Part shown: positions 27,008-31,360 of the stretch, piece after piece | Layout: the number at the start of each line of letters is the position of its first letter | Position numbering within the stretch: position 1 is the first letter of the stretch | Assembly: GCA_945902075.1 (NCBI GenBank) | Contig: CAMDMA010000014.1 | Location: 1 to 64,000, forward strand | Direction of reading: 5' to 3' | From: Candidatus Kuenenia stuttgartensis | Lineage (GTDB): Bacteria > Planctomycetota > Phycisphaerae > Phycisphaerales > SM1A02 | Length of the DNA stretch: 64,000 nucleotides | Notes under the pieces: model-generated | Databases searched by the model: none | What the model was told of the DNA's origin: nothing | Seen by the model: the letters and a program-made list of their open reading frames with translations, nothing else | Translations under genes and position numbers: made by a program

Positions 27008-28228
27008 ATGTCAAGTGCGTCAGGTTTGCAGTCGTCGATGAACACTTCCGCCGGGGCGGCAACCAAGGCTCCCGCTGAGGTTGGGGCGGATGTCGCCATC
27101 ATCGGTGGCGGGCTTGCAGGCGCGGCAGCAGCTTGCGCATTTGCTCGTCGCGGAATTTCAACAGTTTTGTTCGAGCCACGCGCGCAGAGCGATGGACTGT
27201 TGTCGTGCTCCGCGGATAGCACCACGCCCAGGCTTATGGCCGGTCGCCGCGCGAAGTGCTGTGGACACTGCTTGCATGGACGCGTACGTGCCTCACTCGC
27301 AGCACTCGAGCTCACGGATTGCGTTGATCGCATTGCCCATGGTCGCACGACGCGCGCGCGCATTGAGCGTCGCGGTGTACCGGCGCTTGAGTTCGAACTG
27401 GCCGATCCTGGTTTTGTTGTGCGCCGTGACGAACTCGATCCTGCGCTCCTCGATGAGGCACGTCGTCGCGGGGTGGTGATCATCGCACAGTCGGCGCGGT
27501 GGAGCCCTCGAGAAAATCTCGTGCGAAGCGACAGTGTTGAGTGTCGACCAAAGTTGGTGGTTGGTGCAGATGGACTGTCCTCGCGCGTTGCCCGCGATGC
27601 CGGGTTGGTCGAGCACGGCCGACAAGGGCGGCGATTCGGGCTTGCATTCGACTTCGAGGCGGATGCAGAGCTCGCCGACGCGCTCGTTGAGGAGGGCACG
27701 ATTCGCATGATTGTTGCGGACGGTGGGTACCTTGGTCTCGTTCGCGAGCGCCATGCCGTTCACGCAGGCCTTCTCCTCGATGCAAAGGTTTCGGCGCGTG
27801 ATGCGCTTGCGCGTATCGGCACAGAACACCGCGAAATCGGGGCAATTCCGCAGTCAATTCTTCACCAAGCGCTCGCGTGCGCAAGTGGGGCGGGACCGAT
27901 CCCATTTCGCACTACAAGTGCCTGGAGCGATGGCCTCGCGCTCATCGGTGATGCCGCCGGATATGTTGAGCCGTTTACCGGTGAAGGCATGACATGGGCG
28001 TTCGAGTCTGCGGCGCTCCTCGACGCGGCAGTCGCTGCGAGTACCTCGCTTGACGCGGTTCCGGCGCGTTACGGCGCGTTGCGAAGCGAAGCACTCGCAT
28101 GGACGACGCGCCGATGCCGTGCCATCGCATGGGTCGTTGCGCGCCCGCGATTGGTGACTGCTGCGCTCCGATTCGCACAATGTGCGCCCTCGATTTCGCG
28201 GCGCATTTTGCAAGGCGTTGTCCGATGA
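27008..28228 (+). CDS. FAD-dependent oxidoreductase (geranylgeranyl-reductase/UbiH-like)
   Basis: 406-aa flavoprotein with an N-terminal Rossmann motif (VAIIGGGLAGAAAACAFARRG), an RRDELDPALL segment typical of the group and the second FAD motif LIGDAAGYVEPFTGEGMTWA. There is no signal peptide. The stop overlaps the start of a type III polyketide synthase gene (ATGA). In the bacterial alkylresorcinol/alkylpyrone-type loci I know of, a flavoprotein monooxygenase tailors the PKS product. That role is inferred here. Met 27038 is an alternative start. Confidence 0.82.
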   Translation: MSSASGLQSSMNTSAGAATKAPAEVGADVAIIGGGLAGAAAACAFARRGISTVLFEPRAQSDGLLSCSADSTTPRLMAGRRAKCCGHCLHGRVRASLAALELTDCVDRIAHGRTTRARIERRGVPALEFELADPGFVVRRDELDPALLDEARRRGVVIIAQSARWSPRENLVRSDSVECRPKLVVGADGLSSRVARDAGLVEHGRQGRRFGLAFDFEADAELADALVEEGTIRMIVADGGYLGLVRERHAVHAGLLLDAKVSARDALARIGTEHREIGAIPQSILHQALACASGAGPIPFRTTSAWSDGLALIGDAAGYVEPFTGEGMTWAFESAALLDAAVAASTSLDAVPARYGALRSEALAWTTRRCRAIAWVVARPRLVTAALRFAQCAPSISRRILQGVVR

Positions 28229-29349
28229 GTTTGATGACACATCACCACGCGCGACTCGCGGGCCTTGGCTTTGCGACACCTCGCGCAATCGCGCAGGAAG
28301 AACTGGCGCTCATCCAGCGGAAGGCGTTGGGACTCGAGGGTGTTTCCGCGGAGTTGTTCGCGCGCATCGTTTCGGCGAGCGGGATTGATTCACGTGGTGT
28401 GGTAGCCGATGTGTCGACGATTCTTGATCGTACGACCGCTGAACGCATGCGACTCTTTGCAGAACTCGCTCCCCCCATCGCGGTTGCCGCCGCGTGCGAA
28501 GCGCTCGCGAAGAGCGACATCTCACCCGATGCGATCACCGATGTCGTGATCGCAACCTGTACCGGACTCGCGGCACCCGGACTGGCCTCGGATCTTGCCG
28601 AACGGCTTCCGCTCTCTTGCGATGTTCGTCCGCTTCAACTCGGTTTCATGGGCTGCTTTGGAGGCATCGCAGCTCTTCGTACCGCACGCGCGCTCGCGTG
28701 CGCCGATCCCTCAGCGGTCGTCTTGGTGGTCGCGATCGAACTCTGCTCGCTGCACTTTCGCCGCGGTACCGCTCCCGATGCACTCGTCTCCTTCGCGATC
28801 TTCGGTGATGGTGCATCGGCCGCAATCGTCCTCGGCGACGACGCGCGCGGTCGGGCAATCGGATCGTTGGTGGCGCCGCGTACCCGTAACCTTGGTGGCC
28901 GTGAACTCATGGGTTGGAATGTGGAGGACGACGGTTTCCGCATGACGCTTGGGCGCGCCGTACCTGAGGAGATCGAACGGTGCGTGCCCGACTTTCTTGG
29001 GCCTGGACGACCGAGCGCCATCGCGTTGCATCCGGGTGGCGTCGCGATCATTGACGCGGTTGGCCGAGCGCTTGGGGCCGCCATCGGCGCAGCGCCGAGC
29101 GGGGAGCGTACTGCTCTTCCCGCGGCCAACTTCACGAATGAGCTCGGGCTCGATCTTGCGGAGAGCCGTCGGATCCTTCGGACGACCGGAAATACCAGTT
29201 CCGGAGCTGTGTTCCGTGTGGCAAACCAGGTTGTTTCACGGAACCGGGAGCGCGTACGGGGCGAAACGCCATCGCCGCAGAGGTCGATCGATCTCGTAGC
29301 ATTTGGTCCGGGGCTGATCGCGGATGCGATTCGCTTGGAAGGAGACTAA
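28225..29349 (+). CDS. Type III polyketide synthase (chalcone/stilbene synthase family)
   Basis: 374 aa. The Cys-His-Asn triad is complete: C144 in LGFMGCFGGI, H269 in ALHPGGVAI and N323 in TGNTSSG. TCTGLAAPGL and FGDGASAAIVLG are further family blocks. It condenses malonyl units onto an acyl-CoA starter to give alkylresorcinol or pyrone-like products, but the starter is not predictable. It is coupled to the upstream FAD oxidoreductase gene by ATGA overlap. No methyltransferase follows, so the locus is a minimal two-gene set. Confidence 0.88.
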   Translation: MSLMTHHHARLAGLGFATPRAIAQEELALIQRKALGLEGVSAELFARIVSASGIDSRGVVADVSTILDRTTAERMRLFAELAPPIAVAAACEALAKSDISPDAITDVVIATCTGLAAPGLASDLAERLPLSCDVRPLQLGFMGCFGGIAALRTARALACADPSAVVLVVAIELCSLHFRRGTAPDALVSFAIFGDGASAAIVLGDDARGRAIGSLVAPRTRNLGGRELMGWNVEDDGFRMTLGRAVPEEIERCVPDFLGPGRPSAIALHPGGVAIIDAVGRALGAAIGAAPSGERTALPAANFTNELGLDLAESRRILRTTGNTSSGAVFRVANQVVSRNRERVRGETPSPQRSIDLVAFGPGLIADAIRLEGD

Positions 29350-29459: not shown

Positions 29460-31109
29460 ATGCCGCGAAAGGCCAGTTACAGCCTCGCTACGATCCAGTC
29501 GCTCCCTGCGCAGACGATTTATTCGTCTGCTGAAGCAACTCATCGGCAGATGCTCGCAGCGGAAGCGATCGTTCCCTCGATCGACCCAAACGAAAGCTAC
29601 ATCCTGTCCGAGACGCTCGCGTGTATCGTCGGAGCACAATTCGCAGCGGCCGCGGGCCAAGTGGTTGCCGGCCGCGCGCTGCGTGCAGACCTTGCAACGC
29701 TCGTACTCGACCTTTCCGCGCGCCTATCGCTTGATGGGTCGGAGCGGCGCGGGGGCGCAGCGACGCCCGAGGAACTCGCACGGGAGATTGGTGTCGCATC
29801 GAAGACGCTCCAGCGTTGGCGAAGGAGCGGCCTCTGCGCCCATTGGATCATGGACGGTGGAAAGGCTCGCGTCGCGATCTATCGGGCAAGCCTTGAGAGC
29901 TTCGCGGCCAACCATCGTGCAGAGTTCGATCGCGCCTGTAGTTTCCGGCGGTTTGATGCGTCCGAGCGCACTCGACTCCTCAATGATGGCCGAGTGCTGG
30001 TCGAGCAGGGCCGCTCGCTCAACCTCGCCGCGAAGGAACTCGCGCTGCGGTATGGACGCTCACACGAGGGTGTTCGTCTACTCTTCCTCCGCGAGCTTGG
30101 GGTTGCGCGTCGGGCGCGTCGCGGTGTAGGCGAGCATGCGGGCCGTTTCGCTGAACGCGCGTGGCGTCTGGGAGTTGAACCCGCGCGTATCGCCCAGCGG
30201 CTTGGAAAGAGTGAATCGCTCGTTCGGGCGCTTGTAGATCGTCGGCGTGGCGAGTTACTCCGCGGCGTACAGCCTTCGTGGGTCGAACTTCCTACCTTCG
30301 ACCTGCCGGGTGCTGACGAGACGATTCCAAGCGCACCCGCAGTTCGGCGGCTCCAGCCGCTCGGCCTCGTTGATGGCGACATCTTGGCGGCGATTGCATC
30401 AGCCCGCGCCTTGCGCGCGGAGTTCCCGCGCGACGGCCGATCCGCGGCTGAGCGCGATGAAACGCGGGCAGCAGCTATGCATTACATGCTTCGGCGAGCG
30501 TCGCGCGCGATCGACGCGCTTCCGCGTTGGCCCGAACGGTCACGGCTTGACCAGATTGAAACCGATTTACGTACCGCACTTCGACTCCGTTCCATTCTTA
30601 TCGAGCGCGGACTGGTGATCGCGTTTGGTCGGGCTGATCAGTATTGCCACGGTGGTCCTGAGCGGCTCCCCTCCGACGAGATTCGCGCACTCGGCCGGGC
30701 TATCCACACATCTGTGCGCGACGTGGTCACCGACTTTAATCCGGCACGACAGCGTTTCGATCGCGCAATCAGCCTCTCAGCCGACTACGCACTCGCGAAA
30801 CTCGTCACAGCTCGGCGATCGGCGCGCGCGGCTGCACGCCATGCATCGACAATTCCGCTTCGCCTCCTCGATGAGGTTGCGCAGTGGCAGTACACAGTCG
30901 ACCCACTTGCGCATCGCTCGGACCGTGTCGTCGATGAAATCGAGGCGCGCGGTACACATGTCGCCGACGCAAAGTTGCTCGCGCGCCGATACGGATGGTG
31001 CTCGTATGTGCCGACGACTGTGGAGGCACTCGCCGATCAGGAGCGCACAACCATCGCGCTCATGACGAAGCGATTGCGACAAGCCGAGCTTTGGCTGCGG
31101 CGGGCGTGA
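29460..31109 (+). CDS. Multi-helix-turn-helix protein with sigma-70 region 2-like segment
   Basis: 549 aa, starting at ATG 29460. Three predicted helix-turn-helix segments are visible: about 102-125 (TPEELAREIGVASKTLQRWRR), 186-215 (NLAAKELALRYGRSHEGVRLL) and 238-262 (VEPARIAQRLGKSESLVRALV). Residues 368-460 resemble sigma-70 region 2: LRSILIERGLVIAFGRADQY matches the region 2.1 pattern, and FNPARQRFDRAISLSADYALAKLV matches the F-D-P-x-R-x-x-F-x-x-Y-A-x-x-x-I pattern of regions 2.3-2.4. The order (HTHs first, region 2 last) is reversed from normal sigma factors. It is probably a divergent sigma or transcription regulator. The gene ends in a 20-bp repeat array. Confidence 0.6.
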   Translation: MPRKASYSLATIQSLPAQTIYSSAEATHRQMLAAEAIVPSIDPNESYILSETLACIVGAQFAAAAGQVVAGRALRADLATLVLDLSARLSLDGSERRGGAATPEELAREIGVASKTLQRWRRSGLCAHWIMDGGKARVAIYRASLESFAANHRAEFDRACSFRRFDASERTRLLNDGRVLVEQGRSLNLAAKELALRYGRSHEGVRLLFLRELGVARRARRGVGEHAGRFAERAWRLGVEPARIAQRLGKSESLVRALVDRRRGELLRGVQPSWVELPTFDLPGADETIPSAPAVRRLQPLGLVDGDILAAIASARALRAEFPRDGRSAAERDETRAAAMHYMLRRASRAIDALPRWPERSRLDQIETDLRTALRLRSILIERGLVIAFGRADQYCHGGPERLPSDEIRALGRAIHTSVRDVVTDFNPARQRFDRAISLSADYALAKLVTARRSARAAARHASTIPLRLLDEVAQWQYTVDPLAHRSDRVVDEIEARGTHVADAKLLARRYGWCSYVPTTVEALADQERTTIALMTKRLRQAELWLRRA

Positions 31110-31200
31110 TGTTCCCTGCGGCAGCCTGATGTTCCCTGCGGCAGCCTGATGTCCCCTGCGGCAGCGTGATGTCTCCTGCGGCAGCCTGATGTCTCCTGCG
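31107..31200. repeat. 20-bp tandem repeat starting at a stop codon
   Basis: Four full 20-bp units and a 14-base partial (tgatgttccctgcggcagcc and variants) begin exactly with the TGA stop of the sigma-like gene. Each unit restates TGA, so stops occur in every frame, and each carries the hyphenated palindrome CTGC-g-GCAG. Confidence 0.95.
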
Positions 31201-31321: not shown

Positions 31322-31360
31322 GAAAAAGAAACAGAGGTGGACCGGATGGTCCACCTCTGT
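31322..31360 (-). terminator. Rho-independent terminator after rpsI
   Basis: A perfect 13-bp stem ACAGAGGTGGACC/GGTCCACCTCTGT with loop ggat, followed on the minus strand by ttctttttcg. It ends the rplM-rpsI transcript. Confidence 0.93.

Follow-up and report, generated by a model that had tools for sequence, protein, structure and literature searches.

At 29460..31109 on the + strand of the window, the whole stretch of 64,000 nucleotides that was analysed, lies one open reading frame of 549 amino acids. Its product, as read from the ORF and its homologues, consists of a helix-turn-helix (HTH) module followed by a C-terminal half derived from sigma-70. Eleven aligned relatives begin with M[PS]R in the same column as the start in the window; this agreement lends weak support to the start, since the start codon of each relative was picked by script as the one nearest to that of the window. 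A tandem repeat with a 20-bp unit (CTGCGGCAGCCTGATGTCCC; 5.2 copies, 91% matches), at 31095-31200, has its start in the final codons and extends beyond the stop of the gene. At 31331..31360 (− strand), a terminator-like hairpin with a stem of 13 pairs lies between the gene and a convergent ribosomal-protein gene, two such sites having been found against 2.0 expected by chance. The convergent downstream genes can be read, from their translations, as rpsI and rplM.

Directly upstream, on the same strand (27008-29349), are a gene for a geranylgeranyl-reductase-like FAD protein (match below cut-off) and a type III polyketide synthase-like gene of the chalcone synthase type, a pair that possibly belongs to a quinone or alkylresorcinol pathway. 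The ORFs listed for this pair overlap, and the second start may sit further in. Within the order, an MqnA-like cluster gene, identified by clustering and checked against PF02621 for two genes of the cluster, was found upstream on the same strand at 53 of 60 loci (flanks of about 6 kb), and at 49 of these 53 it lies within 600 nt, stop to stop. No such gene was present near the gene in the window or at three other loci (L002, L004 and L005), nor was PF02621 matched anywhere in the window's genome. The MqnA-like partner is thus dispensable, and we rejected a tie to menaquinone synthesis since that partner is missing from the window's genome.

The N-terminal module is made up of four parts, all encoded on the + strand. 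Residues 1-98 (29460..29753) form a novel domain, for which Pfam, NCBIfam and the PDB sequences were searched without a match; a profile of this domain gave a single PDB match, at E 0.82. HTH1 (residues 99-155; 29754..29924) is winged and MerR/HTH_17-like, as indicated by Pfam profile, model and conservation, the HTH_17 match covering residues 102-152 at E 5.6e-6 with a score (27 of 27 bits) exactly at the cut-off. HTH2 (residues 156-222; 29925..30125) is recognised from conservation, from helices predicted at about 165-212, which include a 10-residue block with a pLDDT of 87 in an otherwise poor and uninformative full-length AlphaFold model (mean pLDDT 45.7), and from weak profile matches in relatives, such as MarR_2 at 181-214 in L025, below cut-off. 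HTH3 (residues 223-268; 30126..30263) is homeodomain/HTH_23-like, being conserved and matched by HTH_23 at residues 234-262 (E 1.9e-4, below cut-off). The three HTHs of the original prediction are therefore borne out, the first and third by profile and the second by predicted helices and weak matches in relatives. Key residues of the module are kept across all family groups in an alignment of 114 rows: G124 and L125 of HTH1 are invariant, and R119 (HTH1) and R206 (HTH2) are each conserved in 98% of rows.

The module is followed by a linker (30264..30431) that carries a family motif, ELPTFDLPGADETI in the window, identified by alignment and by a similar motif in a paralogue. Then come a region 1.2-like helix (residues 325-360; 30432..30539), indicated by alignment, model and a hydropathy signal that is weak in the window's family, and a degenerate sigma2 comprising regions 2.1-2.4 (residues 361-452; 30540..30815), for which alignment, profiles, hydropathy and model all speak. 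A second linker, placed by alignment (residues 453-485; 30816..30914) and containing W476, which 90% or more of the window's family keep, leads to a degenerate sigma4 (residues 486-549; 30915..31106) that was recognised by alignment and family profile and has lost the ERxRQ of the recognition helix. This collinear layout of N-terminal domain, three HTHs, linker and sigma half places the window protein in what we call the HTH-sigma70 family, in whose members a front module of about 270 aa, the novel domain plus three HTHs, precedes region 1.2, sigma2, linker and sigma4. The order is hence not reversed, as had been proposed; sigma2 stands before sigma4 as is normal, and the HTHs constitute a module ahead of both. 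For what follows, families of the protein are coded, f1 being that of the window, f2-f6 those of the same order, and the others those of the same class or phylum.

The window protein by itself matched no sigma family in Pfam or NCBIfam (PF04542, PF04545 and TIGR02937 were not reached), and no NCBIfam match came near any cut-off, so that sigma2 cannot be assigned by HMMs from the single sequence. This is what would be seen if the likeness to sigma were due to chance and the protein were a multi-HTH regulator of the usual kind that ends in a helical tail. Such an explanation is highly improbable, however, because collinear relatives bear unmistakable sigma2 and sigma4 domains and because profiles built from f1 alone or from f2-f4 alone match sigma factors. 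Four f5 proteins (L073, L074, L075 and L077), which have the N-terminal module in common with the window, exceed both cut-offs behind it, with Sigma70_r2 at E 3e-10 to 1e-11 and Sigma70_r4 at E 9e-15 to 8e-19; the fifth f5 row, L076, gave a weak Sigma70_r2 match alone (E 0.001). L107 and L109 also passed the Sigma70_r2 and Sigma70_r4 cut-offs, with Sigma70_r3 unmatched in both (Pfam). All four canonical relatives tested passed the cut-off of TIGR02937, and the RpoD-type matches of one of them, L109, start at residue 318. A profile from 85 members of the order matched RpoS, SigA and RpoD in the PDB (E 7e-15 upward), mostly in two stretches, region 2 and region 4. Individually, Sigma70_r4 reached E <= 0.01 in 45 of these 85 members and Sigma70_r2 in 9, figures that are upper bounds for the tail since some region-4-type matches sit in the N-terminal HTHs, as do the Sigma70_r4_2 matches of L077 and L094.

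When the profile was restricted to the C-terminal part of f1 (36 of 49 rows, no canonical sigma included), it matched RpoS region 4 among PDB sequences at E 1.3e-7; of the 58 PDB matches with an E no higher than 10, 55 were sigma factors or sigma chimeras. Its agreement at 2.1 and 2.3 was collinear and individually insignificant (1.2 and 5.3 bits). The equivalent profile from f2-f4 (15 of 18 rows) matched a sigma factor at E 4.4e-13, and a profile of the N-terminal domain, used as a control, matched no sigma factors. Against three sigma factors from the genome of the window, profile-profile comparison gave f2-f4 a probability of 88.5 (E 2.7e-6), f1 a weak 14.3 (E 0.0019) and the N-terminal domain control 0.1 (E 0.43). 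Since the profile evidence for sigma2 within f1 is weak, the case for it there rests on collinearity, relatives and structure.

On the structural side, an AlphaFold model of window residues 325-549 with five genus relatives had a mean pLDDT of 54, reaching 60-81 over most of 325-449; four other models were poorer (pLDDT 41-48). Foldseek returned nothing at E <= 0.001 for the C-terminal model, and the first 22 matches listed were sigma-related. On structural re-alignment with VIA, the 50 matches listed were all sigma chains by title and chain (Z 10.5-11.9). These values call for caution, because VIA starts from the candidates that Foldseek supplies and because a Z of up to 13 may arise by chance with helical models. 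The best was domain 2 of SigA (4x8k; Z 11.9, 3.0 Å, 119 residues). Hydropathy of f1 followed that of canonical members in sigma2 (r 0.65) and sigma4 (r 0.56), with offset controls at or below 0.18 and a weak correlation in the region 1.2 part (r 0.35; best offset 0.26), in a comparison based on an alignment that itself favours similarity.

By this evidence we assign window residues ~361-452 as homologous to sigma-70 region 2, as first suggested; the strings then quoted align with 2.1 and 2.3-2.4 of canonical relatives, the model has a sigma2 fold, and no better profile matches to other helical domains were found. The accompanying claim that region 4 is missing does not hold, given the match of the f1 profile to RpoS region 4: a sigma domain 4, though degenerate, is present after sigma2 in the window's family. 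The sigma half of this lineage seems to have kept its fold and to be still conserved.

Region 2.2 of sigma-70 serves in core binding, 2.3/2.4 in melting of the −10 element and 4.2 in recognition of the −35 element. We scored 22 sigma2 and 15 sigma4 hallmark positions of our own choosing on a single alignment. Families outside the order had medians of 18-22/22 for sigma2 and 8-15/15 for sigma4 (means over 26 rows, 21.5/22 and 14.4/15), and f5 had 21/22 and 14/15. The window retains 5/22 and 6/15. Medians were 6/22 and 6/15 in f1 (49 rows), 7/22 and 8/15 in f2, 4/22 and 9/15 in f4, and 11/22 and 3/15 in f6 (17 rows); the one row of f3 had 8/22 and 9/15. The f1 means, 5.9/22 and 6.2/15, exceed the 2.2 and 2.1 expected from composition, so the remaining hallmarks are above chance. 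Median sigma2 identity to the outside families is 0.42 for f5 vs 0.17 for f1, compared with 0.32 vs 0.25 in the HTH part.

The losses fall on functional residues. The region 2.2 signature ([DE]...[DE]GN) is absent from the window, which has A410, A414, I415 and H416 there (moving the alignment here by 3 residues is possible and would retain the acidic E407, still without DGN), and no more than 6 of the 49 f1 rows keep any one of the four core-binding positions. The FSTYxxW columns hold F433, D434, R435, A436 and L439, with F433 the sole survivor; across f1 they are kept in 16 (F), 3 (S), 0 (T), 0 (Y) and 1 (W) of 49 rows. For ERxRQ..E in 4.2 the corresponding counts are E 0, first R 5, second R 0, Q 2 and last E 0. 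The 2.1 N, the 2.3 T and Y, and the E and second R of 4.2 are kept by none of the f1 rows. What f1 retains is more often structural, such as the 2.3 D (41/49) and, in region 4, a T (40/49) and a G/A (43/49). Core-binding, melting and −35 recognition residues are mostly gone in f1 and in f2-f4. In f6, sigma4 hallmarks are at chance (mean 2.5/15 vs 1.9 expected), and region 4 is, by this measure, lost from the family. The f6 members (L078-L095 without L084) are 484-540 aa long, with a conserved HTH module.

Divergent sigma factors, such as ECF, also lack some hallmark residues, and for this reason hallmark loss is not proof that sigma activity has gone; the retained sigma2 and sigma4 folds are also compatible with a divergent working sigma. 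In such a protein the HTHs would find the promoter, sigma2 would open a different −10 element and sigma4 would sit on the beta flap. The preservation of fold pattern (hydropathy and model), the region order kept in f1-f4 and the purifying selection on sigma2, region 1.2 and sigma4 all fit this idea. We nevertheless consider it unlikely, because the core-binding residues of f1 are so rarely kept, the T and Y of 2.3 never and the W once, because f6 has lost sigma4, and because 20 other Sigma70_r2 matches exceed the cut-off in the window's genome. The role of sigma domain 4 itself is treated in a passage of PMC4598750. An RNA-polymerase-binding repressor (the last of the original suggestions) or decoy, whose tail would hold RNA polymerase or compete with sigma factors while the HTHs hold DNA, would account for a sigma fold pattern kept without melting residues and for the near-complete retention of R119 and R206. 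The core-binding signature of 2.2 is itself among the losses, however, so that whatever activity is left is not expected to be canonical clamp binding, and this alternative seems distinctly unlikely.

Of 151 genomes around the window, 138 have a homologue (E <= 0.001); 127 of the 138 have a single match, and the extra matches in the remaining 11 are mostly frame pieces or weak hits. Five relatives with 70-73% identity lie on MAG contigs named Planctomycetaceae bacterium (three), 'uncultured bacterium' (one) and 'Limnohabitans sp.' (one). The copy in the last record, L001, is 73% identical, and its contig is perhaps mis-binned. Across 246 sampled genomes of the phylum, 243 were counted as having a match, a tally owed largely to other sigma factors that match generically in region 4. 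By comparison, the N-terminal domain occurs in 41 of the 246 (30 of 183 genera), with one match each, and the HTH-sigma70 family is therefore far from universal in the phylum. Full-length proteins from these genomes also occur in f7-f9, f18, f32, f39, f46, f53, f73, f79 and f82, and 18 coded families carry HTH-sigma70 proteins in all. The proposal of a new sigma-like class thus stands as far as an HTH-fronted sigma-like protein is concerned, and fails in that the protein is not confined to this lineage; members outside the order, where read, look like ordinary sigma factors, with 18-22/22 hallmarks in sigma2 and 14-15/15 in sigma4, bar one f8 row with 8/15. In f56 (L156, 2621-3730, + strand; like matches in G209) the N-terminal domain is followed almost directly by the sigma half, without the three HTHs, in what we read as an alternative architecture within the family.

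The window's genome also encodes, on another contig, a short canonical sigma paralogue, L157, with an open frame of 450 aa. It has a linker motif (YIDHAEYHLDGAEE) similar to that of the window and the sigma2-sigma4 layout, and the HTHs are absent. A swap of the long protein for this short one was considered and rejected as a simple explanation, since genomes with the canonical form (f5) and those with the degenerate form (f1, f2 and f6) alike contain matches of short-paralogue length.

In a tree built on the N-terminal module alone (58 rows), f1, f2, f4, f5 and f6 each formed one clade (f3 being a single row) and the window's order was separated at 100/100. Gene relationships follow the families, so that inheritance looks vertical. 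A mobile origin was rejected: the canonical module of L109 (270 aa) was unmatched in 72,556 plasmid and 50,697 phage records, two pattern-based viral-contig scans contained no relative, and the tree tracks the families. As regards a single loss of the sigma signature or two losses, the grouping of f6 with f1-f4 had a support of 25/25, with two alternatives unrejected (p-AU 0.447 and 0.491).

Loss of hallmark residues is also what a decaying pseudogene in the window's genus would display. We find this scarcely tenable, given that the frames are open (among the matches listed, the sole stop is in a separate weak match at E 9.3e-4), that the gene is kept in a genome lacking mqnA, its usual neighbour, and that dN/dS is well below 1 in every part. 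Among 15 sequences of the genus (105 pairs, of which 90-103 could be used for each part), the sigma half had median dN/dS values of 0.18 (sigma2), 0.17 (region 1.2 part) and 0.25 (sigma4), compared with 0.17, 0.21 and 0.15 for HTH1, HTH2 and HTH3, 0.28 for the N-terminus and a maximum of 0.41 in the linker. All of them are rough, since dS approaches saturation (pS has a median of about 0.6). Rough as they are, the sigma2 values resemble those of the HTHs, which argues that the sigma2 remnant is under purifying selection and not decaying.

Sigma-70 homology, a sigma fold pattern, hallmark loss, purifying selection and a conserved HTH module are all documented here at the level of sequence. On balance we favour the reading that the gene product is a sigma-70-derived DNA-binding regulator and probably a sigma factor no longer. 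Such a protein would bind DNA mainly through its N-terminal HTHs; its sigma activity would have been lost, and the sigma-shaped tail may serve as a docking or dimerisation module that perhaps still contacts RNA polymerase in a non-canonical way. It would then act as an activator or repressor, not as a promoter-opening subunit. More tentatively, we envisage a single-copy sigma-70 class with a built-in multi-HTH module, present in 18 families, that became a conserved non-sigma regulator in five of the six families sampled from one order, possibly in two independent conversions, a scenario that we regard as plausible, if not quite probable.

If true, this would be a direct record of a sigma factor turning into another type of regulator. 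A sigma factor directs RNA polymerase to its start sites and usually depends on activators that are separate proteins; one equipped with a three-HTH front would unite both roles in a single chain. Natural stages are available, from canonical (f5 and the outside families) through motif-poor and full-length (f1-f4) to tail-truncated (f6), and since they are related by descent, the way in which a sigma factor gives up its function, and the later use of its fold, become testable. The gene is also a practical target for the study of transcription control in uncultured planctomycetes. We found no publication describing the HTH-sigma70 family, judged by title and the start of the abstract, with most subscription journals outside coverage; the passages available of PMC3906078, PMC11588811, PMC4598750 and PMC11119718 do not describe this architecture.

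Compared with sigma-70 factors of the RpoD/SigA and RpoS type (TIGR02937, PF04542/PF04545), the family has homologous regions 2 and 4 in the normal order, region 1.2 in its canonical relatives and a sigma2 fold in the window model; it differs in the front of about 270 aa, with its novel domain and three HTHs, in giving no sigma3 match and, in f1, in lacking most residues for core binding, melting and −35 recognition. ECF (group 4) sigma factors are laid out as sigma2-sigma4 without sigma3. The HTH-sigma70 family shares this layout, whereas the region 1.2 and RpoD/RpoS-like sigma2 and sigma4 of its canonical relatives and the long N-terminal module set it apart. The paralogue L157 resembles it in linker motif and in layout from family position 269 on, and is unlike it in having no HTH module and in retaining 19/22 sigma2 and 14/15 sigma4 hallmarks. 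A possible likeness to MerR/HTH_17 regulators would lie in HTH1, which just reaches the HTH_17 cut-off. Finally, MzaA (NF041931), the sigma-70 protein of the MZA anti-phage system, was the first-ranked NCBIfam match of L109 (E 5.5e-43), which scores 148 of 800 bits, far under the cut-off and best over the sigma region.
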